This document shows, piece by piece, positions 1 to 10,921 of a stretch of 13,546 nucleotides of DNA. The DNA lies in NCBI GenBank assembly GCA_020061125.1, contig JAGUYV010000167.1:1-13546 (forward strand), read 5' to 3'. The notes below the pieces were generated by a model. That model was given only the letters and a program-made list of their open reading frames with translations, searched no databases and had not been told where the DNA came from. The translations under genes and the position numbers were made by a program. How positions within the stretch are numbered: the stretch's first letter is position 1; the number at the start of each line of letters is the position of its first letter. This stretch comes from a bacterium. GTDB taxonomy: Bacteria; UBP15; UBA6099; DSWB01.

Positions 1-216
1 TCCGTGGCCGCGGCCGCGGCGTGCGTTGCGGGCGCTCACGCCGCCGGGCTGCTGCTTGGGCCAGGGCATGCGCTGGACGGCCTGGGCCGTCTCATCCTTA
101 TACTGGGACTGAAAGGCGCCGCAGGAACCCTCTGCGCTCTGGCCGTGTTCCTGTTGCTGCGCACGCGCGAGGTTTTTGATGCGATCGTCTTCTTGAGAAG
201 GGCGGCGGGCAAGTGA
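1..216 (+). CDS. C-terminal fragment of a polytopic membrane protein, possibly a polysaccharide flippase (5' end outside window)
   Basis: The reading frame is open from the first base of the window and stops at TGA 214-216, giving about 71 residues of what is probably a longer protein. A GTG at position 4 could serve as a start, but nothing resembling a ribosome site can be judged there. The fragment is very hydrophobic, with two likely membrane segments (about residues 2-17 and 27-52). It ends in a short basic, amphipathic tail containing RTREVFDAIVFLRR. That arrangement is common at the C-terminus of MATE/Wzx/MurJ-type lipid-linked sugar flippases, and the radical SAM and methyltransferase genes downstream fit an envelope-polysaccharide cluster. 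The stop codon overlaps the GTG start of the next gene (GTGA), so the two are probably translationally coupled. The family call is inference; another multi-pass transporter is possible. Confidence 0.5.
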   Translation, partial: SVAAAAACVAGAHAAGLLLGPGHALDGLGRLILILGLKGAAGTLCALAVFLLLRTREVFDAIVFLRRAAGK

Positions 217-1187
217 AGAATCCCGTGAAAAAACTCGTTGGCGGAGCGCGCCGCGCCGTCTATCTGGTGCCGCGCCGCCCCGAGTTCGCGCAATTCGAGA
301 TCACCAACCGCTGCAACCTCAACTGCGCCATGTGCCCGCGCACCAAATTCTATAAAGTCAAGATCGCGGACATGCCGTATGAGGTTTACGAGCAGGCGCT
401 GAACAAGCTGCTGCCCCTGCGCCTGGCCACGCTCACGGGCTGGGGCGAACCCCTGTTGCACAAGCGGCTATACGACATGATCCGCCTGGCGCGCGCCCGC
501 GGCGTGCCCAGCGTGGCCATCACCACCAACGGCGTGCTGCTGAACGATGAGCACATCGAGAATTTGCTCGAAAGCGGACTCACCGCCCTGCGCGTGTCCG
601 TGGACGACCTGGCCGAACCCGGCGGCGCGGAAACGGCCGGGCACGGCGGCGGCGCGGAGATTATGAACAAAGTCGCGCGCCTGCTGGAGCGCCGCAAGGG
701 CGCATCCCCGCAGGTGGCGTTGGCCGTGACCATTTCTCCGGAAAACCGCGCCGATGTGTTCCGGCTCATTGACCGCGCCGCCGGGATCGGCATGGATATG
801 GTGGCGCTCATGCGCCTCAACGACCGCTTCGACGAGTCGCTGAAACGATACACATTCGAGGAAGAAAGGCAGGTCTGCGCGGAGTATGAGTCGCACGCGG
901 CCAGGGCCGGAATCAAAATCGGCACCCCGCGCCAGATGTTCGACGGCATCCGCAGCCTGCTCTACCGCGGCGGCGAAAAATGCCCGGTTACTTACGACAG
1001 CGTGTATGTCACAACCGAGGGCAAAATCACGCCGTGCTGCGCGCTTCCCAAGCTCGTGATGGGCGACATTCTCACGCAGGATATTGCGGACATCTGGAAC
1101 AGCGAAAAATTCAAACGGTTCCGCAGGGATCAGCGCAAGGTATGCGCGCACTGCGACCTGCTGGACAAGCGCTACAAGGCGCGCTGA
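213..1187 (+). CDS. Radical SAM/SPASM domain protein (first of a tandem pair)
   Basis: This is a 324-residue enzyme. Its N-terminal half is a radical SAM core with the 4Fe-4S cluster motif CNLNCAMC (Cys34, Cys38, Cys41), which binds S-adenosylmethionine and generates the 5'-deoxyadenosyl radical. The GWGEPLLH segment just downstream matches the conserved GGEP-type SAM-binding strand. The C-terminus carries a SPASM-type auxiliary-cluster region with Cys257, Cys275-Cys276, Cys311 and Cys314 and the usual IxDIWNSEKF helix. The GTG start at 213 overlaps the upstream stop codon and follows a GAGAAGGG ribosome site at 195-202. Known SPASM enzymes mature peptides, oxidise sulfatases or modify small molecules and sugars. 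No precursor peptide or sulfatase lies here, so the substrate is unknown. The Gly-rich stretch near residues 135-150 looks like a loop insertion. Confidence 0.9.
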   Translation: MKNPVKKLVGGARRAVYLVPRRPEFAQFEITNRCNLNCAMCPRTKFYKVKIADMPYEVYEQALNKLLPLRLATLTGWGEPLLHKRLYDMIRLARARGVPSVAITTNGVLLNDEHIENLLESGLTALRVSVDDLAEPGGAETAGHGGGAEIMNKVARLLERRKGASPQVALAVTISPENRADVFRLIDRAAGIGMDMVALMRLNDRFDESLKRYTFEEERQVCAEYESHAARAGIKIGTPRQMFDGIRSLLYRGGEKCPVTYDSVYVTTEGKITPCCALPKLVMGDILTQDIADIWNSEKFKRFRRDQRKVCAHCDLLDKRYKAR

Positions 1188-1209
1188 AGGGAACGGAACG
1201 GCTTTCTTC

Positions 1210-2253
1210 ATGCTGCCAAAAGGCTACCGGTACATCTATCACTACAACGCGGGGTCCGCGCGCCTGCCGCACCCCCCAATGTTGCTGTGGGTCGAGCCGA
1301 CCAACCGCTGCAACCTGCGCTGCACCATGTGCCCCAACAGCCTGTCCGGAAAAAGCCGCGAGCACGGCGACATGTCCCTGGATACCTTTGACGCCATCGT
1401 GAGCCAGGCCCGGGGCTGGGTGGACATCATATACCTGTTCCTGGCCGGGGAATCCATGCTGCACAGGGATCTCCCGGAAATGATCCGGCGCGCATCGAGC
1501 GCGGGCATACGCGTGGTGCTGCACACCAATGGCTGCCTGGTCAACGAAGAGCGCGCCGCGGCGCTTATTGACGCGGGCCTGCACGAAATCAGTTTCAGCT
1601 TCGACGCTCTGGATCCTGCGGAATACGAGCAGCGGCGTGCGGGCGCAAACTATGAGAAAACTCTGGGCAACATCATTCGCTTCCTCGAAATCAAGAAACA
1701 GAAAAATGCAAAGCGGCCGAAGGTTGACATTCAGTGTATTGATTTCCGGGCGCAGGCCTCGCGCGAAAGCGTGCGCGAATTCAAATCCCGGTTCAAGGGC
1801 CTGCCCGTGGACGCCGTGAAAGTGATTCCCGCGCACACCTGGGCCGGAACATTCAAGGACGACGCCAGCCTGCACGCCGCGCCCGGCGGCCGCGTGTACT
1901 GGCCCTGCAAATTCCCCTGGGCGTCCATGGCCATCGCGTGGAACGGCGATGTGGTGGCGTGCTGCAACGACCTGTTCGGCGAAGTCCGTCTCGGCAATGT
2001 CAATGAAACGCCCCTGCGCGAGATATGGAACGCGAAACCCATGCAGCGGTTCCGCGAGGCGCTGCTCGCGCAGCATTTTTCCGAGTATCCCGTGTGCAAG
2101 AACTGCGATGTGCCGTACAACCACAACAACGCGCGCCTGCCCGTGCGTTGGGCGCGTTCCCTGCCGAACCGCGCCCTGGCCGGAACCTTTGGCCTGGGCA
2201 TCGAACTGGCGCGCCGCGCCGCGGCGTCCATCAAGCAGGCCGTGAAAAAGTAA
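1210..2253 (+). CDS. Radical SAM/SPASM domain protein (second of a tandem pair)
   Basis: This 347-residue protein parallels its upstream neighbour. It has a radical SAM core with CNLRCTMC (Cys34, Cys38, Cys41, the same positions as in the first enzyme), a LAGESMLH SAM-binding strand, and a C-terminal SPASM-like region with Cys233, Cys251-Cys252, Cys296 and Cys299 around an LREIWNAKPMQRF helix. The frame stays open upstream to an ATG at 1084, but that stretch lies inside the previous gene and translates to low-complexity sequence. The ATG at 1210 is preferred because it aligns the N-terminus with the paralogue and leaves a 22-base spacer. The ribosome site is weak (AAGGGAACGG from 1188). The last 40 residues form a basic, Ala-rich extension that could be an amphipathic membrane-associating helix. 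The substrate is unknown. Divergence from the paralogue suggests successive or different reactions rather than redundancy. Confidence 0.9.
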   Translation: MLPKGYRYIYHYNAGSARLPHPPMLLWVEPTNRCNLRCTMCPNSLSGKSREHGDMSLDTFDAIVSQARGWVDIIYLFLAGESMLHRDLPEMIRRASSAGIRVVLHTNGCLVNEERAAALIDAGLHEISFSFDALDPAEYEQRRAGANYEKTLGNIIRFLEIKKQKNAKRPKVDIQCIDFRAQASRESVREFKSRFKGLPVDAVKVIPAHTWAGTFKDDASLHAAPGGRVYWPCKFPWASMAIAWNGDVVACCNDLFGEVRLGNVNETPLREIWNAKPMQRFREALLAQHFSEYPVCKNCDVPYNHNNARLPVRWARSLPNRALAGTFGLGIELARRAAASIKQAVKK

Positions 2254-2268
2254 CGGAGCCGAACGCCC

Positions 2269-3174
2269 ATGCCGGAAACCGTGGATTGCTCTCTGTGCGG
2301 ACCCGCGCCCTCGCGACTGCTGTACACGACCCGCCCGCGCGAGCCGTACAAGCCTCTGCCCGCGGACGACATCCTGCCCGAGCGCAACTGGCGGCTCTGC
2401 GCGGAGTGCGGGCTGATTTATCTTTCTCCGCGCCTCACCCCCGCGGAAGCCTCAACCCTCTACGACAACGACTACCACGATGTGCACCACGAAGAACTGC
2501 GCACCTGGGAGTTTCACAAGAAAAAGGAATTCATCGAGCGGCAGACGCGCGGCGGCCGCCTGCTTGACATCGGCTGCGGATACGGATATTTCCAGTACCG
2601 GCTCGGAGACAACTGGCAGGCTACGGGACTGGAAATCTCCGCCGCCGCGGTGAGCAAAGGTCGCGAGCGCCTGGGCGTGGACATCCGGCAGGGGACGCTG
2701 GAACAGGCCGCATTCGAAGACGATTCCTTTGATGCGGTCACCATGTGGGATGTGCTGGAGCATCTTCCGGACCCGGTGGCGGAACTGCGCCGCGCGTATC
2801 GCGTGCTGCGTCCCGGGGGCGTCATCGGCATCTCGACCTGCGACGCATCAGCCCTGGCCCCGCGCCTGGCGCGTTCCTACTGGTACTGCATCAACACCCC
2901 CGACCATCAGTATGCTTTCACCCTGGAATGGCTCAAGAAGGCGTTCGCCGCCACAGGATTCGAATACCGCGAGGCGTTGATTCACAACAAGGGATTTGAT
3001 TTCTTCACGCCGTTCGCGCGCCGTCTGGCCCTGGAGGGCGTGAAGGCCTCGATCGCCGCGGCCGCCGCAGTCACCCGCGCGCCGCGCCTTAAGGAATTCC
3101 TCGCGCGCAAGGCCCCGCCCCTGGTTCCCATGTTCCGGGACATCGTCATGATCTCCGCCATAAAAACGGCATAA
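2269..3174 (+). CDS. Class I SAM-dependent methyltransferase with N-terminal zinc-ribbon-like motif
   Basis: This 301-residue protein begins with a CxxC...CxxC pair (Cys7/Cys10 and Cys44/Cys47, the latter within CAECGLIYLSPR). This layout is typical of methyltransferases found in polysaccharide and secondary-metabolite clusters, where the cysteines are thought to bind zinc. The Rossmann methyltransferase fold follows: motif I LLDIGCGYGYF (about residues 98-108), an acidic LEIS strand end, the DDSFDAVTMWDVLEHLPDP post-motif region, and LRPGGVIGIST. These are hallmarks of the Methyltransf_11/23 group. The start has a GGAG ribosome site at 2255-2258 and lies 15 bases behind the second radical SAM gene, so the three genes are probably co-transcribed. 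The acceptor is unknown; a sugar or lipid-linked intermediate is inferred from context. This is the last gene of the + strand operon and converges on relA. Confidence 0.88.
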   Translation: MPETVDCSLCGPAPSRLLYTTRPREPYKPLPADDILPERNWRLCAECGLIYLSPRLTPAEASTLYDNDYHDVHHEELRTWEFHKKKEFIERQTRGGRLLDIGCGYGYFQYRLGDNWQATGLEISAAAVSKGRERLGVDIRQGTLEQAAFEDDSFDAVTMWDVLEHLPDPVAELRRAYRVLRPGGVIGISTCDASALAPRLARSYWYCINTPDHQYAFTLEWLKKAFAATGFEYREALIHNKGFDFFTPFARRLALEGVKASIAAAAAVTRAPRLKEFLARKAPPLVPMFRDIVMISAIKTA

Positions 3175-3225: not shown

Positions 3226-5400
3226 TCAGATTTTTCTCTGCGCGGAAATTACATCGTCGAGGCGATTAATGCGTGAGACGATGTCCGCGGCCTGTTCGGC
3301 GTCCGCGACTTCGACCCACAGATTGGTGAGGCGTGAAAGGTCTTTGAGGACTTTGCTCTGCATGTTGCTGATCTGCATCTTTGCGCCGCTCACCGCGGCC
3401 ATGATCTGGTGGAGCATTTCCGCGCTGTTCAGCGAGTGGATCACGATGTGCGCCAGGTAGGTGCTTTTGAAGGCCTCGCCGCCCCATTGCACGGACACGA
3501 TAGGACTTTTTTCTTTGGGCGTTTTTTTGAGGGTCTCGCAGTTTGCGCGGTGGATGTAAATGCCTTTGCCGCTGGACACCTGGCCCACGATGGCGTCTCC
3601 TGGCAGGGGGCAACAGCACTTCGAGAAATTCACGAGCACATCGCTCAAGCCGTCCACGATCACATCTTTTTTCTTGCGGCGCACGGACGGGGCGGCGCGT
3701 GTCACGGGCTTGTCGCGCTCTTCAGTTTGCAGCAGGTCGCGGTACTTTTTCCTGATGCGGTTGACCACGCCCTCGACATTGATGTCGCCGCAGCCGATGG
3801 CCGCGTACAGATCGTTTTCGGTTTTGAGGTTCGTGATTTTGAGGGAATCCTGCAGCCCGATTCTGTCAATGAGATCCTTGCGGCGCAGGCCCGCGCGGTC
3901 CAGTTCGTGCTGGAGCATTTCCTTGCCCTGGGCGATGTTTTCCACGCGGTTGGACTGCTTGAACCAGGTGCGGATTTTCTGGCGCGCGCCCGCGCTTCGC
4001 ACGAACTGGAGCCAGTCGCGGCTGGGGCGTGAAGTTTTGCTGGTTTTGATCTCTATGACATCGCCGTTGTGCAGGGGCGTGTCCAGTGTGGCGATGCGGC
4101 CGTTGACCATGGCGCCGATGCAGCGGTGCCCGATTTCCGTGTGGATGCGGTAGGCGGCGTCCACGGGAGTCGCGCCTTTGGGCAGGGTCACCACGCGGCC
4201 CTTGGGGGTGAGCACGAAGACCTTGTCTTCGAACGGGTCCAGAGTGATCTGTTCGAGGAAGTGGCGCGGGTCCGTGGTTTCGGAACCGTGGTCCACCACG
4301 CGGCGGATCCATGTGGCGGCGGTGTCGGCCACGCGGCCGCCGCCCACTTCCTCTTTATACGCCCAGTGCGCGGCCACGCCGTACTCCGCGGTCTGGTGCA
4401 TTTCCCAGGTGCGGATCTGCGCCTCCACAGGCAACTTGTTCGGACCCACCACCACTGTGTGCAGGGACTGGTATCCGTTGTCTTTCGGCTCCTGAATGTA
4501 ATCGTCGAAGGTGCCGGGCACGGGTGTCCAGTTGGTGTGCAGCAGGCTCAACACGCGGTAGCACTGCTCTTCGGTTTCCACGATGATCCGCACGGCCAGG
4601 ATGTCGAACAGTTCCGACACCTGGATTCCCTGCCGCAGCATTTTCTTGTACATGCTGTAGTAGTGCTTCTGGCGGCCGGTGATGTGGATGTCCACGCCGT
4701 TGTCCCGGCAAAGTTTCTTGATTTCACGGATGGAGAGCTGGAGGGTTTCCTCGCGCTCGGTGGCCAGGGCCTGGACGCTGTCGCGCAAGTAGGCGTATTC
4801 CGCGGGTGAAGTCCACTTGAAGGCCAGGTCCTCGATCTCGGATTTCATCTGGCTCAAGCCGAGCCGGTGCGCCAGGGGTGCGAAAATCTCCATGGTTTCG
4901 AGGGCGTAGGCCTCGCGTTCCTGTTCCGGGAACAGGTCCAGATGCCGCATGATTTCCAGGCGGTTGGCGAGCTTGACCACGATGGTGTGGACCTTGCGGG
5001 CCATGGCGATGAACATCTGTCGGAGCTGCTGGGCCTGCTCTTTTTCGTCCGTGGAAAAGCGCAGAACATTCAGGGACGAGAGCAGCTCAAGCATTTCGAA
5101 GAGTTCATCGCCCAGGAGTTTCTTGAGTTCGGCGGTGTCCCGCTTTGATGGGAGCAGTTCGTGGAGAAGGCCCGCGGCGATGGTCTGCGGGTCCAGGGGA
5201 TATTCGGCGAGAATGCAGGCTACATTGAGGCAGTGCTGGAGCAGGGGTCTGCCCCCGGCCACATTGCGGCCGCGATAGGCCTCGCTGGCAAGAGCGAAGG
5301 CGGTGTCCAGGAGCGCGATGTCCTCGCCCTGGTTCTGGAGCGCCACCCTGCGCTTGAGCGTATCGAAGGTGCAGAGATTTGTGTCCTGCGGTGTGTTCAT
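3226..5400 (-). CDS. relA: RelA/SpoT homologue: (p)ppGpp synthetase with degenerate hydrolase domain
   Basis: This 724-residue cytoplasmic long RSH transfers pyrophosphate from ATP to GDP/GTP, making the stringent-response alarmone. Domains in order are: HD hydrolase-like (about 30-190), synthetase (about 230-350), TGS (about 389-450), a zinc-finger/conserved-cysteine region (Cys595-597, HRANC) and a C-terminal ACT domain (about 645-724). The synthetase keeps GRQKHYYS (Arg243), FDILAVR (Asp266), NGYQSLHT (Tyr310) and VEAQIRT (Glu326). The loop that reads RxKD in bifunctional Rel/SpoT and ExDD in RelA reads TFDD (297-300), so it is RelA-like. The hydrolase site is eroded: HD has become His80-Glu81, the following ED is replaced by Pro-Ser, and the later catalytic Asp (LADRL) is Asn146. 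Hydrolysis is therefore probably lost. The ATG has no evident Shine-Dalgarno sequence and lies 58 bases behind apt, beyond two GC-rich hairpins. Confidence 0.95.
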   Translation of the reverse strand: MNTPQDTNLCTFDTLKRRVALQNQGEDIALLDTAFALASEAYRGRNVAGGRPLLQHCLNVACILAEYPLDPQTIAAGLLHELLPSKRDTAELKKLLGDELFEMLELLSSLNVLRFSTDEKEQAQQLRQMFIAMARKVHTIVVKLANRLEIMRHLDLFPEQEREAYALETMEIFAPLAHRLGLSQMKSEIEDLAFKWTSPAEYAYLRDSVQALATEREETLQLSIREIKKLCRDNGVDIHITGRQKHYYSMYKKMLRQGIQVSELFDILAVRIIVETEEQCYRVLSLLHTNWTPVPGTFDDYIQEPKDNGYQSLHTVVVGPNKLPVEAQIRTWEMHQTAEYGVAAHWAYKEEVGGGRVADTAATWIRRVVDHGSETTDPRHFLEQITLDPFEDKVFVLTPKGRVVTLPKGATPVDAAYRIHTEIGHRCIGAMVNGRIATLDTPLHNGDVIEIKTSKTSRPSRDWLQFVRSAGARQKIRTWFKQSNRVENIAQGKEMLQHELDRAGLRRKDLIDRIGLQDSLKITNLKTENDLYAAIGCGDINVEGVVNRIRKKYRDLLQTEERDKPVTRAAPSVRRKKKDVIVDGLSDVLVNFSKCCCPLPGDAIVGQVSSGKGIYIHRANCETLKKTPKEKSPIVSVQWGGEAFKSTYLAHIVIHSLNSAEMLHQIMAAVSGAKMQISNMQSKVLKDLSRLTNLWVEVADAEQAADIVSRINRLDDVISAQRKI

Positions 5401-5458: not shown

Positions 5459-5971
5459 TCAGTAATGGATCAGGGTGAAGATGTCCTGATCCTTGAGTTT
5501 TTCGCGGCCGTTGAGCGCGTCCAGTTCGATGAGGAATGCGATGCCCGCCACGGCCGCGTTCTGGGTCGTGACCAGGCGGCAAGCGGCTTCCATGGTGCCG
5601 CCGGTGGCCAGCAGGTCGTCCACGAGCAGAACTTTCATGTCCGGAGTTACGGCATCCTTGTGCATCTGGATGCTGTCGGTTCCGTATTCGAGGCTGTACT
5701 CGGCGCTCACGGTTTCCGCGGGCAGCTTGCCGGGTTTGCGGATGAGGATGAAGGGAATGTTCATCTTGAGCGCCAGGGGCGCGGCGAAGATGAAGCCGCG
5801 GGATTCGATGCCGGCCACGGCGTCTATGCCCTTGTCCTTGAAGTGCTCGTGCATGCCGTCAATGGCTTGGGCGAAGGCGTCGGGACGCAGCAGCATGGTC
5901 GAGATGTCGCGGAAAAGAATCCCGGGCTTGGGAAAATCCGGGATGGCGCGAATGGTGTCCTGGATGTTCAT
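5459..5971 (-). CDS. apt: Adenine phosphoribosyltransferase
   Basis: This 170-residue cytoplasmic enzyme condenses adenine with PRPP to give AMP and pyrophosphate (purine salvage). The length is typical of the family. Signature features are the N-terminal IPDFPKPGILFRDIS, the AGIESRGFIFAAPLA segment (53-67), the RKPGKLP flexible-loop start, and the PRPP-binding motif VLLVDDLLATGGT (114-126). The start is ATG 5971 behind a good ribosome site (AAGGAG, about nine bases upstream). It lies 34 bases after recJ and 58 bases before relA on the same strand. The recJ-apt-rel order is well known in bacteria and links purine nucleotide supply to alarmone synthesis. A promoter-like sequence containing a palindrome lies just upstream (5992-6020), so apt and relA may also be transcribed separately from recJ. 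Confidence 0.96.
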   Translation of the reverse strand: MNIQDTIRAIPDFPKPGILFRDISTMLLRPDAFAQAIDGMHEHFKDKGIDAVAGIESRGFIFAAPLALKMNIPFILIRKPGKLPAETVSAEYSLEYGTDSIQMHKDAVTPDMKVLLVDDLLATGGTMEAACRLVTTQNAAVAGIAFLIELDALNGREKLKDQDIFTLIHY

Positions 5972-5991: not shown

Positions 5992-6020
5992 AGTATACAT
6001 CACAGTCAGGACTGTGACAG
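5992..6020 (-). promoter_or_regulatory. Candidate sigma-70-type promoter for apt-relA with an internal palindrome
   Basis: On the minus strand, CTGTCA (6015-6020) and TATACT (5992-5997) are separated by 17 bases, a fair match to -35/-10 boxes. The perfect inverted repeat TCACAGTC-N2-GACTGTGA (6000-6017) fills most of the spacer, overlaps the -35 box and covers the recJ stop codon. The predicted transcript would have a leader of about 14 bases that still includes AAGGAG. Which regulator would bind, if any, is unknown. The -35 match is only four of six. Confidence 0.4.
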
Positions 6021-7769
6021 CCTGATGTCCATGAGGTTGAGCTTTACCGAGCGCTTGCCGCGGAAATTGTCTTCCTTGAGATTGAAGGCGGCGTCAATGG
6101 CGGCGCCGTGGAATTCGGCGGGATTGAAGCGATGGGCCAGATTGAAGCCGATGGCGTCCGCGATGGCGTTGTTCTGGCCCAGGCGCATGAGCAGGTGTCT
6201 GCCGTCCGCGCCGCAGGGCCTGGTTTCGAGCACATTGAGGTTTGTGGCCGCGAACAGGGGCTTGGAGTTTCCCGCGCCGCAGGGTTCCATGAGCTGGGTC
6301 TGCTTGAGGAAATCCATGGTGATTTCATCGAGCCGGAGCACGCCGTCAATTGCCAGCGAAGGCGAATAGCGGCCGCGCGGGGTGAGGCCGTTGAGGATCT
6401 CGTTGAAACGGGCGCGCAGCGCGGGAATGTCGCGCTCGTAGATTTTGATGCCCGCGGCCATGGCGTGGCCGCCGTAGGTGATGAGCAGGTCCTCGCACTG
6501 GGTGAGCAGGGCGTGGATGTCCACCTCGCGGATGCTGCGCGCCGATCCCTGGCACACGCGCCCTTTTTCGGGGTGCGGGTTGCTCTTGTCGTCGGGCCTG
6601 CCGGATACGGTCATGAGAATCACGGGCCGGTAGTGCCGCTCCAGGAGTTTGGAAGCCACGATGCCCACGATGCCGATGTTCCAGTCTTCGTGGAACAGGA
6701 GGATGGCCTTGTCTTTTTCGAGGATGCCGGAGCCGCGCAGCATATCCTGCGCGGTTTCGAGAATGAGCGCTTCCTCGCGGATGCGGGCGCGGTTGTGGAA
6801 ATCGAGCTTGCGGGCGATTTTGTCGGCGCGGTCCGGGGCGTCGGCCAGGAGCAGCTCCACGCCCGCGCGGGGTTTCCACACGCGGCCCGCGGCATTGATG
6901 CGCGGGGCCAGGCCGAAGCTGACCAGAAAGGTGTCGGGCCGGTCCTCTTCGTTGTAGCGTGACACATCAATGAGATAGCGCAGGCCCAGGTTGCCGGTGT
7001 TGGCCATGTGTTCGAGGCCGGTGCGCACGAGCGCGCGGTTTTCGTCAACCAGAGTGACCAGGTCGGCCACGGTGCCCAAGGCCACGAGTTCGGCGTAGCC
7101 GTCCATCATGTCGCGGATGCCGATGCCGCGGGTCTGTCCCAGGGCGCAGCAGAACTTGAAGGCCACGCCCACGCCGGCCAGATCGCGGAAGGGATAGGAG
7201 CAGTCCTCGCGCTTTGGGTTCAGCAGCGCGGCGGCGCGGGGCAGGGCCTGTGGCGGCTCGTGGTGGTCTATGATGATCATGTCCAGGCCCAGGGTGCGGG
7301 CCACATCGGCTTCGTGCGTTGCGCTCACGCCCGAGTCCACGGTGATGATGAGGTTGTATCCGGCCTTTCTTGATTTGCGAACCACATCCTCGCTCAAGCC
7401 GTAGCCTTCGGTTTCGCGGTCCGGGATGTAGTAATTGACATTGCCGCCCAGCCGCCGCAGGAAGGATACCAGCAGGGCGGTGCCGGAGATCCCGTCCACA
7501 TCGTAGTCGCCCAGAACCAGGATTCGTTCCTTGTTCTGGAGAGCGGCCGTGGCGCGGTCCACGGCCCTGCGCATGTCCGTCATTAAAAACGGGTCATGCA
7601 GGGAGGCTTCGGATGGAAGCAGGAAAGCGCGCGCGGCGTCCATGGACTGGATGCCGCGATTGACGAGTGCGCGGGCGATATGCTGGGAAATATCGAGCGC
7701 CGCGGCCATGTCGGATACAATGGCCGTGTCCGGACCCGGGAATTGCCAGTTGCTGCGAGTGTCTTTCAT
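6006..7769 (-). CDS. recJ: Single-stranded-DNA-specific exonuclease RecJ
   Basis: This 587-residue DHH-family nuclease degrades single-stranded DNA 5' to 3' in RecFOR recombination and mismatch or base-excision repair. The length is usual for the family. Metal-binding motifs are visible: LVLGDYDVDGISGTA (Asp88, Asp90, Asp92), ITVDSGVS (Asp145), IIIDHHEPP (DHH 168-170) and NPKREDCSYPFRDLAGVGVAFK. The DHHA1 domain has the YGGHAMAAG signature (around residue 435). The ATG at 7769 gives the expected N-terminus, with the family's typical DISQHIARALVNRGI helix. Only a poor ribosome site precedes it (GCGCTCCT). The 147-base gap after secF contains a GC stem-loop and no convincing promoter, so recJ is probably read through from secDF. 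Confidence 0.96.
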   Translation of the reverse strand: MKDTRSNWQFPGPDTAIVSDMAAALDISQHIARALVNRGIQSMDAARAFLLPSEASLHDPFLMTDMRRAVDRATAALQNKERILVLGDYDVDGISGTALLVSFLRRLGGNVNYYIPDRETEGYGLSEDVVRKSRKAGYNLIITVDSGVSATHEADVARTLGLDMIIIDHHEPPQALPRAAALLNPKREDCSYPFRDLAGVGVAFKFCCALGQTRGIGIRDMMDGYAELVALGTVADLVTLVDENRALVRTGLEHMANTGNLGLRYLIDVSRYNEEDRPDTFLVSFGLAPRINAAGRVWKPRAGVELLLADAPDRADKIARKLDFHNRARIREEALILETAQDMLRGSGILEKDKAILLFHEDWNIGIVGIVASKLLERHYRPVILMTVSGRPDDKSNPHPEKGRVCQGSARSIREVDIHALLTQCEDLLITYGGHAMAAGIKIYERDIPALRARFNEILNGLTPRGRYSPSLAIDGVLRLDEITMDFLKQTQLMEPCGAGNSKPLFAATNLNVLETRPCGADGRHLLMRLGQNNAIADAIGFNLAHRFNPAEFHGAAIDAAFNLKEDNFRGKRSVKLNLMDIRLSQS

Positions 7770-7916: not shown

Positions 7917-9287
7917 TCAGCGGCGGCGCTGTTTTTTGGACTTCTTTTTGGCTGCGGCCGCGGCTTGCGAATCCTTGTCGGGGTCCGCGGCGCTGGCTGT
8001 TGCGCCATCCGCTTTGGGCGTGGCTTTTTTGGGCTGGGCGGAAGCCTGCTCGGCGGCCCTGGCTTTTTCCTTCTTTTTGGCGCGCGCCGCAGGGTGCTGG
8101 GCCTGCGCCGGCTCGGTTTCTCCGCGCAAGCTTTTGAACAGATATGCAAGGGGCGCGGCCACGAAGATTGACGAATACGCGCCCGTGAGGATGCCGATGA
8201 AGATGCCGAGCGCGAAGTCCCGGATGGTCACGCCGCCGAAGAAGATGATGGCCAGCAGAGTAAGCTGCGTGGTCAGAACCGTGTTGATGGAGCGCGGCAT
8301 GGTTTCCCACAGACTCGCGTTCATCACGGCCGCCAGAGGCGCTTTGCGGTCCTTGCGCGTGTTCTCGCGGATCCGGTCGAATATCACGATGGTATCGTTG
8401 ATGGAGTAACCGAACACCGTGAGAATTACGGCCACGAAGGTTGCGTTGATTTCAATCTGCAGCACGGAATACGCGCCGATGGTGAACAGGCAGTCGTGCA
8501 CCAGGGCAATGATGGCCGCCACGGCAAACCACATCTCGAACCGGATCCACACATAGATGAGAATGCCGATTACGGCGATGATAAGAGCCTTGAGCGCGTT
8601 GGAGAACAGAACCGAACTGAACACCGGGGACACTTCTTCGGTGCGGGACTCTGCGCTCGGCTCGTAGCCTCCGAATTCCTTGTACAGCGCCGTGGCGGCT
8701 TCGGTGAAGGCTTGTGCGGATTCCGCGCCCTTGACGCCCACCCGGAGGTTGAAACTTGCGGCCTCGCCTTCACGCACCGGGTTGTTCTCGATCTCGAAGG
8801 TCTTGATCGAATATTTGCCCTGGAAATTCTTCTGTAGGAACTGCTCGATTTTTCCGCGCGTGACTTCTGCGCCCACATACTTGAATTCCGTGACAGGGGC
8901 TTTGAGATCCGTCATTTCCAGGCGGAACCGGATCTTGAGGTCGCGCATGCGCTCCTCGAAGAGCTTCTGCTCGTCCTTGTCGTAGCCCTCGGTGCGGACC
9001 AGGAAGCCGGTGACTTTCTGGGACATGCGGTCGCGCGTGATTTGCACGGGCTGGTGCTTGATGCCGGATTTTTCGATAATGTCTCCCACTTTGGCCGGGG
9101 TGATGTCCTGGCGCGAAGTGGGGTACTGGATGATGTAGCCGCCGGTGAAATCAATGCCGATGTTGAAGCCGCGGGGCGGAACGAACAGAGAACCAAGCCC
9201 GATGCCGACCACCAGAATGAGCGATATGGCGAACCATGTGTTGCGCTTGCCGATTATGTCCCGCCAGCCAGTGAATTCCTTAGACAA
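7917..9287 (-). CDS. secF: Protein translocase subunit SecF with long basic C-terminal tail
   Basis: SecF, with SecD, uses the proton-motive force to assist late steps of Sec-dependent export from the trans side of the membrane. The 456 residues show TM1 (about 18-36), the FNIGIDFTGG motif (41-50), a periplasmic domain (about 55-225), TM2-TM6 (about 231-384) and the signature GYSINDTIVIFDRIREN (293-309). The start codon is TTG at 9285-9287, supported by an AGGAGG ribosome site nine bases upstream and by the normal SecF N-terminus. Residues 385-456 are an additional Ala/Lys/Pro-rich tail ending KKKSKKQRRR, making the protein longer than usual SecF (about 300-400). The tail is cytoplasmic by topology and predicted disordered. 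The gene lies 44 bases behind secD, an operon arrangement found in many bacteria. Confidence 0.96.
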   Translation of the reverse strand: MSKEFTGWRDIIGKRNTWFAISLILVVGIGLGSLFVPPRGFNIGIDFTGGYIIQYPTSRQDITPAKVGDIIEKSGIKHQPVQITRDRMSQKVTGFLVRTEGYDKDEQKLFEERMRDLKIRFRLEMTDLKAPVTEFKYVGAEVTRGKIEQFLQKNFQGKYSIKTFEIENNPVREGEAASFNLRVGVKGAESAQAFTEAATALYKEFGGYEPSAESRTEEVSPVFSSVLFSNALKALIIAVIGILIYVWIRFEMWFAVAAIIALVHDCLFTIGAYSVLQIEINATFVAVILTVFGYSINDTIVIFDRIRENTRKDRKAPLAAVMNASLWETMPRSINTVLTTQLTLLAIIFFGGVTIRDFALGIFIGILTGAYSSIFVAAPLAYLFKSLRGETEPAQAQHPAARAKKKEKARAAEQASAQPKKATPKADGATASAADPDKDSQAAAAAKKKSKKQRRR

Positions 9288-9331: not shown

Positions 9332-10861
9332 TTAAGCGTTGTTGCCCTGCGTGAGGCCGAAGCCGTACAGGGACAGATTGGGATTTTTGGACCCTTTTGC
9401 GATGATGAGCATGATGACGCGTGTGATCATGACGGCCGAGAACATGCTGGCCAGGATGCCGAGGCTCAAGGTTACGGCGAACCCGCGGATGGGGCCGGTG
9501 CCGAACCCGTAGAGTACGGCGGTGGCGATGAGCGTGGTCACATTCGCGTCAAGAATGGCGGTGATCGCGCGGTTGAACCCGGCTTCCACGGCCGCGTACA
9601 GGGTCTTGCCCAGTTTCAATTCTTCCTTGATGCGCTCGAAGATGATGACATTGGCGTCCACGGCCATGCCGATGGACAGCACGAAGCCCGCGATGCCGGG
9701 CAGGGTGAGCACAGCGTTAATCATGCTCATGGCGCCGAACATGATGATGATGTAAAGAAGCAGCGCCACGCTGGCGACCACTCCGGGCAGGCGGTAGTAT
9801 CCTATCATGAATACCACGACCGCGCCCAGGCCCAGAAGACCGGCGAAGAAGCTCTTGGACAGGCTGTCCTTGCCCAGAGTGGGGCTGACCGCGCGCATCT
9901 CGGCCACGCGGACCTCGAGGGGCAGGGCGCCGGAGTTGAGCCAGTCCACCAGGTTCTTGACTTCCTCGCGGGTGAAACTGCCGGTGATTTCGCCGCTGCC
10001 GTTGGGGATGCCGCTGTTGATGCTCGGGCAGGAAATGATGCGCCCGTCAATGGCGATGGCCAGGTAGTGGTTGCGCCCGGTCTGTTCGCTGCTCACATGG
10101 CGGCGGGTGAATTCATAGAACCGCTCCGCGGCCTCTTTCTGCAAAGTGAAGGAAACCGAAGGGCGGCCCGAGGAAAAGCCCGGGGACGCTTTCTTCAGCC
10201 CTGCGCCGTCAATGACCACGCACCGGTCGTTGGAGCGCGCGCGCGGATCGCACGGCTTGTCCCGCCATTCCTGCGGCACTTCGAACCCTTCCTCCAGATA
10301 CTCGTCGCCGGAATACAGGAATTCGAGCTTGGCCACCTGGCCGAGGCTCTGGCGCACTTTTTCGGGGTCTTTTTCGCCGGGGATGTCAATGCTGATGAAC
10401 TGAACGCCCTGCTTCTGGATATTGACTTCGCGCACGCCCTGGGGGTCGAGCCTCGCGCGCATGACCTTGATTACGCCCTCGACCTCTTCGGCCTTGGGCG
10501 CCGTGTCGCCCTTGCGCGGTATGGCTTCCATGACGATGTGCACGCCGCCCTTGAGGTCCAGCCCCATATTGATGGGCAGCCCGCGCGTTTTGATGACTTT
10601 CTTTTTCTTTTGAATCTGCAGGACTTTTTCGCCCTTGGCCAGATCCAGCATTTCTGGGCTGTCCGGCGCGGAGAGGGTTTCCACGGTGCGGGTCTCGGGT
10701 GCGCCGGACTTTTTGGCGTCCCCGGCTTTCTGGATCTGGGTCTCGTAATAAACGAACGAGGTTTCCTCGTAATTGCTGTAGTAGCGGTACGCGCTCCAGC
10801 CCGCGCACAGGCCCACCACCGCGATCACGATTAAAAACTGCGCCACAATGTTTTTGTGCAT
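9332..10861 (-). CDS. secD: Protein translocase subunit SecD
   Basis: This inner-membrane protein partners SecF in Sec-dependent secretion. It has 509 residues: TM1 (about 5-24), the conserved NMGLDLKGGVHIVME (98-112), periplasmic P1 and head domains (including LDPQGVREVNIQKQG, 138-152), then five TM segments (about 337-490) with the family signature VDANVIIFERIKEEL (401-415). The frame is open to an ATG at 10903. The ATG at 10861 is preferred because AAAGGA lies just upstream and the protein then begins directly with the first membrane segment. The periplasmic part contains a charged insert (about 186-215) with two cysteines (204 and 214), plus a Lys-rich linker (about 84-92). A promoter candidate sits about 60-90 bases upstream of the start. 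Confidence 0.96.
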   Translation of the reverse strand: MHKNIVAQFLIVIAVVGLCAGWSAYRYYSNYEETSFVYYETQIQKAGDAKKSGAPETRTVETLSAPDSPEMLDLAKGEKVLQIQKKKKVIKTRGLPINMGLDLKGGVHIVMEAIPRKGDTAPKAEEVEGVIKVMRARLDPQGVREVNIQKQGVQFISIDIPGEKDPEKVRQSLGQVAKLEFLYSGDEYLEEGFEVPQEWRDKPCDPRARSNDRCVVIDGAGLKKASPGFSSGRPSVSFTLQKEAAERFYEFTRRHVSSEQTGRNHYLAIAIDGRIISCPSINSGIPNGSGEITGSFTREEVKNLVDWLNSGALPLEVRVAEMRAVSPTLGKDSLSKSFFAGLLGLGAVVVFMIGYYRLPGVVASVALLLYIIIMFGAMSMINAVLTLPGIAGFVLSIGMAVDANVIIFERIKEELKLGKTLYAAVEAGFNRAITAILDANVTTLIATAVLYGFGTGPIRGFAVTLSLGILASMFSAVMITRVIMLIIAKGSKNPNLSLYGFGLTQGNNA

Positions 10862-10921
10862 GAATCCTTTTCTCCCAAAAAGCAACATCGAACGCGGGCG
10901 CATTCGCCCGGCATCCGGGGC

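Follow-up and report, generated by a model that had tools for sequence, protein, structure and literature searches.

Introduction

In the usual picture of the stringent response, a bacterium carries either one bifunctional Rel or, in beta- and gamma-proteobacteria, RelA together with a SpoT that is still bifunctional. A complete split of the two activities has been described for Moraxellaceae only (PMC3153485, PMC9974481); literature coverage here is partial and earlier reports may exist. Acinetobacter SpoT was established by experiment as a hydrolase-only long RSH with a pseudo-synthetase (PMC9974481). A dead domain used as scaffold is also found in E. coli RelA, Acinetobacter SpoT being the reverse case (PMC9974481). 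Bacteroidia have been reported to carry RshB, an additional long RSH whose HD domain has diverged (PMC3153485).

The window analysed here (the whole stretch of 13,546 nucleotides) carries one long RSH gene, A, and a second one, B, is encoded elsewhere in the same genome. Like the synthetase-only [hS] RelA of beta- and gamma-proteobacteria (E. coli RelA), A is a long RSH with a pseudo-hydrolase, an intact synthetase and an EXDD-like motif; it also keeps the ribosome-sensing TGS histidine and the ZFD, and its HD domain is similarly relaxed. Unlike RelA, A falls outside the RelA clade in the best tree, lies in a secDF-recJ-apt-rel operon and has a partner, B, that the best tree leaves out of the SpoT clade; some A proteins of the order retain more metal-site residues. 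B resembles the hydrolase-only [Hs] SpoT of Moraxellaceae (A. baumannii SpoT, PDB 7qpr) in combining an active hydrolase (predicted in B) with a dead pseudo-synthetase and in having a RelA-type [hS] partner, but it differs in being set apart from SpoT by the best tree, in its strongly diverged CTD and in its linkage to thpR. With the ancestral bifunctional [HS] Rel (B. subtilis Rel), A shares operon position, domain order and closest sequence matches, whereas its hydrolase site is lost. RshB is comparable in being an additional long RSH whose HD domain has diverged, but it belongs to another lineage and was reported as a second [HS] copy rather than as one member of a reciprocal pair.

Gene A and its locus

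The open reading frame of A is intact, starts with ATG and ends exactly at the limits given in Table 1. Its product is composed of a pseudo-hydrolase, an active-looking synthetase, TGS, ZFD and ACT, and TIGR00691 covers residues 34-721, in keeping with the HD-SYNTH-TGS-HEL-ZFD-ACT architecture of long RSHs. The nearest solved structures are B. subtilis Rel (6yxa), a RelA-named long RSH (8fr8) and E. coli RelA. With the NCBIfam RelA equivalog NF008124, A scores 480 bits, below the 728-bit cut-off.

The order secD-secF-recJ-apt-rel is kept around A in those relatives of the order with enough contig. Ordinary Rel genes often share these neighbours, recJ being present in 50 of 79 loci and apt in 34 of 79. 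Since parts of secD-secF-recJ-apt surround many ordinary Rel genes, A appears to hold the ancestral place in the rel operon. On the other side of A, the plus strand of the window (213-3174) carries two overlapping radical-SAM-like open reading frames (213-1187 and 1084-2253) and a methyltransferase-like one (2269-3174), convergent to A; these found no matches within the A loci of relatives.

Table 1. Features of the A locus, genes beside B and further RSH pairs
Feature	Position or locus	Strand	Basis or remark
Gene A, long RSH, RelA-like [hS], 724 aa	3226..5400	-	ORF; TIGR00691 644 bits; best PDB match Rel 6yxa
Pseudo-HD domain of A, ~residues 25-195, catalytic site eroded	4816..5328	-	residue alignment; predicted fold
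H80-E81-L-L-P84-S85 (bifunctional counterpart H-D-x-x-E-D)	5146..5163	-	alignment
N146 codon, where Bacillus Rel has the metal ligand D144 (Asp)	4963..4965	-	alignment
Synthetase domain of A, ~residues 205-345, tested catalytic residues all present	4364..4788	-	alignment
TFDD discriminator motif, residues 297-300	4501..4512	-	alignment
H420 codon, corresponding to H432 of E. coli RelA	4141..4143	-	retained by A, not by B
apt, directly upstream of A	5459..5971	-	ORF and neighbourhood comparison
recJ	6006..7769	-	ORF and neighbourhood comparison
secF	7917..9287	-	ORF and neighbourhood comparison
secD	9332..10903	-	ORF and neighbourhood comparison
ThpR/LigT-type gene beside B	L036:6881-7462	-	
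ThpR/LigT-type gene beside B	L037:134-715	-	
ThpR/LigT-type gene beside B	L041:7459-8088	+	
ThpR/LigT-type gene beside B	L038:5900-6643	-	
Pseudomonadota group, hydrolase-dead Rel and shorter long RSH with dead synthetase	L203-L208 with L209-L213, L190-L192		
[hS]+[Hs] pair	L220/L230		G099 (family f95)
[hS]+[Hs] pair	L223/L229		G366 (family f95)
[hS]+[Hs] pair	L228/L233		G226
[hS]+[Hs] pair	L224/L235		G355

Hydrolase and synthetase sites of A

Aligned to B. subtilis Rel, the HD domain of the window A reads V47 at R44, H56 at H53, H80 at H77, E81 at D78, P84 at E81, a gap or S85 at D82, N146 at D144, E149 at H147, I150 at N148 and H153 at T151. Of the metal site, H56 and H80 alone remain, and the nucleotide-binding arginine of RxSGEP (the R44 equivalent) is lost. 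Across many phyla, 151 bifunctional long RSHs were compared: R44, H53, H77, D78, E81, D82, D144, N148 and T151 are each present in 151 of 151 proteins; as this set was picked by H53, H77, D78, D144 and three synthetase residues, invariance at these four hydrolase positions is by selection, and that at R44, E81, D82, N148 and T151 is independent of it. Because the compared positions are invariant in the bifunctional enzymes, the losses in A are not chance variation.

The synthetase residues R243, K245, D266, K306, N308, Y310, H314 and E326 are all present in the window A, and the synthetase set is complete in all readable A proteins of the order. The first-pass annotation, which had described intact synthetase residues, HD changed to HE at 80-81, the ED pair replaced by Pro-Ser and the Asp of LADRL by Asn146, is confirmed on each of these points by the alignment. 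Its general picture of a hydrolase-eroded RelA homologue in the usual rel locus agrees with both the comparison to the 151 bifunctional enzymes and the operon context. By its residues, A would thus combine an inactive hydrolase with an intact synthetase, as in RelA [hS].

Erosion of the HD site differs by genus among the A proteins of the order. R44, the ED pair, D144, N148 and T151 are lost in all readable ones. In G001, H53, H77 and D78 are kept, E81 and D82 are lost (E81 to Ser) and D144 is Ala; in G002-G004, the positions H53, H77, D78 and D144 read H, M, G and S, HD having become MG. In the AlphaFold model of A, the HD domain is mostly at pLDDT 80-93 per 10-residue block, with 67-71 near residues 110-140, and the domain is predicted to fold still, as would be expected of a pseudo-domain kept for scaffold.

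The TFDD discriminator had been read earlier as a sign of monofunctional RelA. The motif itself stands, but the argument drawn from it is weak: EFDD occurs in L139-L141 (family f79), where the HD site is intact, and RFKD in hydrolase-dead [hS] proteins. EXDD was therefore rejected as a sign of monofunctionality.

A hydrolase-type partner throughout the order

Gene B lies at G000:C41:23433-25601 on the minus strand of the window genome. Its hydrolase set is complete, R44 and the ED motif included, and all seven B proteins of the order combine, as judged from their residues, an intact HD domain with a dead SYNTH domain: every one of them has Lys at Y308 and Glu at H312 and lacks D264 and E324. 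HD_4, TGS and ACT_4 match B above cut-off and RelA_SpoT below it, and TIGR00691 gives 366 bits against a cut-off of 499. The CTD is strongly diverged; the H432-equivalent histidine and one ZFD cysteine are lost. Since the B profile scores 959-1314 bits within the order and at most 441 bits elsewhere among the 386 genomes searched, the B clade is, as far as this sample goes, specific to the order.

A gene for a LigT/ThpR-type 2H phosphoesterase overlaps or abuts the 3′ end of B in every genome of the order with enough contig (the G006 contig is truncated). Within flanks of about 1 kb, no ThpR/LigT gene was found beside hydrolase-only RSHs of other lineages.

Orthologues of both A and B are present in all seven genomes of the order (that of the window and six others), and their open reading frames are intact wherever the contig allows, which argues against pseudogene decay. 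The window genome is a MAG of 4.1 Mb in 513 contigs, 79% complete; relatives of the order at 92-97% completeness agree with it. Each of the seven genomes encodes exactly two HD_4 proteins, A and B. A small alarmone hydrolase, considered as the missing hydrolase, was discarded, the HD_4 search having found none in these genomes. It had been anticipated from A alone that a separate (p)ppGpp hydrolase would be needed elsewhere, to be sought as a second long RSH, a small alarmone hydrolase or SpoT; the search returned B, with its intact hydrolase and dead synthetase, in seven of seven genomes.

For the synthetase family (PF04607), A is the only match in six of the seven genomes. The window genome has one extra, a 363-aa RelA_SpoT protein with a C-terminal extension (L002:834-1925, minus strand, on G000:C19), which within the order occurs there only and matches the PADLOC candidate PDC-S33; it may be a small alarmone synthetase of a defence or toxin type. 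Leaving this gene aside, and within genomes that are incomplete, the order displays a complete [hS]+[Hs] split with no other synthetase or hydrolase.

Proposed division of labour between A and B

We propose, with a probability of roughly 87%, that A is a ribosome-associated synthetase-only [hS] enzyme and B a hydrolase-only [Hs] one, the two jointly splitting the activities of the ancestral Rel. This reading is supported by the reciprocal loss of invariant residues, in HD for A and in SYNTH for B. The mean ratio of HD to SYNTH identity goes the same way, with 0.69 for A, 0.73 for beta/gamma RelA, 1.07 for bifunctional controls (range 0.79-1.38) and 1.95 for B. A also keeps both ZFD cysteines and the TGS histidine that corresponds to H432 of E. 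coli RelA, a residue that intercalates or stacks at the tRNA CCA end (PMC4974054).

From such features we infer the enzyme activities, the ribosome dependence and the action of B on (p)ppGpp. A, located in the ancestral rel operon, would respond to deacylated tRNA arriving in the ribosomal A site by making (p)ppGpp, its dead domain being retained as scaffold, and B, encoded elsewhere in the genome, would remove (p)ppGpp independently of the ribosome. As the CTD of B is so strongly diverged, its regulation is a matter of guesswork. The split itself is real and well supported, and would be of an ordinary mechanism, a RelA-like synthetase with a SpoT-like hydrolase; it is unusual in its completeness, its lineage and its apparent recurrence.

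Origin of the pair and alternative explanations

A might be an orthologue of beta/gamma RelA, horizontally acquired or of shared descent, with the loss of hydrolase being the same event. In the SYNTH+CTD tree, A forms one clade (100/100), near but outside beta/gamma RelA and in the same weakly supported part; the AU test does not reject A and RelA as a single clade (p = 0.063 with SYNTH+CTD and 0.42 with the CTD alone), and EXDD-like motifs are found in both. Against a shared origin, the best SYNTH+CTD tree places L139 and L140, with their intact HD, next to RelA to the exclusion of A (support 87/89), A is located in a generic rel operon, and some A proteins of the order retain H53, H77 and D78, which E. 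coli RelA has lost. B, too, stands outside the SpoT clade in the best trees: whether built from HD+CTD or from the CTD only, they unite all B proteins (support 100) at the end of a long branch, and because of this long branch a joint clade with SpoT is not rejected (p = 0.276). A common origin with RelA thus seems doubtful to us. A and B as sisters from one duplication inside the order are not rejected either (p = 0.33). We describe the pair, on its sequences, as a convergent-looking case of the known RelA/SpoT-type split.

The diverged CTD of B and its stable linkage to a 2H phosphoesterase gene could also mean that its substrate is not (p)ppGpp but some other pyrophosphorylated nucleotide such as pppApp. 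This we hold to be improbable, given that all (p)ppGpp hydrolase residues are kept, including R44 and the ED motif, and that B is the sole HD_4 enzyme available to balance A.

It is improbable, too, that a modified metal site made of H56, H80, E81 and N146 leaves A with some hydrolase activity. Two His ligands and a conservative D-to-E change at 81 in the window A, in a fold predicted to be intact, would be in its favour, but in the alignment, by which alternative ligands were judged, A lacks the catalytic ED pair, D144, N148 and T151 as well as R44, which binds the base, sister A proteins have lost additional ligands, constraint on the HD domain is relaxed as in RelA, and a dedicated hydrolase is always present.

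Finally, faulty metagenome binning or errors in sequencing could be thought of as the source of the pair, most genomes of the order being fragmented assemblies (such as the 513 contigs of the window genome), but such an artefact is practically negligible when seven genomes from three families all contribute to two orthologous clades, A and B, each supported at 100/100 and each consistent in branching order and synteny.

Reciprocal pairs in other lineages

The split into A and B is not the only one in our sample. In Pseudomonadota, a second RSH of 620-720 aa is present in 10 of 40 genomes; six out of the six that were read have an intact HD with a dead SYNTH, and the first RSH copies read from those genomes are [hS] with RFKD. 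This group, outside beta/gamma, probably corresponds to Alphaproteobacteria. Further [hS]+[Hs] pairs were found in four genomes (Table 1); in one of them, G366, the hydrolase copy contains an in-frame TAG. Other combinations exist as well: G237 has [HS]+[Hs], and a bifunctional Rel stands in tandem with an EFDD-type hydrolase-dead [hS] RSH on one contig of G336 (C63:1700-6001, L226/L232).

On a tree of 76 sequences, the [hS] state requires 6 changes. A single [hS] origin was rejected both for the A proteins of the order with the Pseudomonadota [hS] group (p = 3e-5) and for A with the [hS] proteins of f95, G226 and G355 (p = 1e-6). We consider it likely that the complete reciprocal split of Rel is a recurrent convergent outcome, reached in this order, in the non-beta/gamma Pseudomonadota group and in one more lineage at least, and is not a peculiarity of Moraxellaceae.

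Implications

A complete split thus marks each of the seven genomes of this uncultured order, and separate pairs exist elsewhere. For annotation, these cases are a warning that matches to the "RelA/SpoT family" and the EXDD/RXKD motif do not reveal the activity of a protein. The split also makes it testable which parts of a long RSH serve intramolecular switching only: the dead pseudo-domains persist, and the residues that read the ribosome are gone from B.
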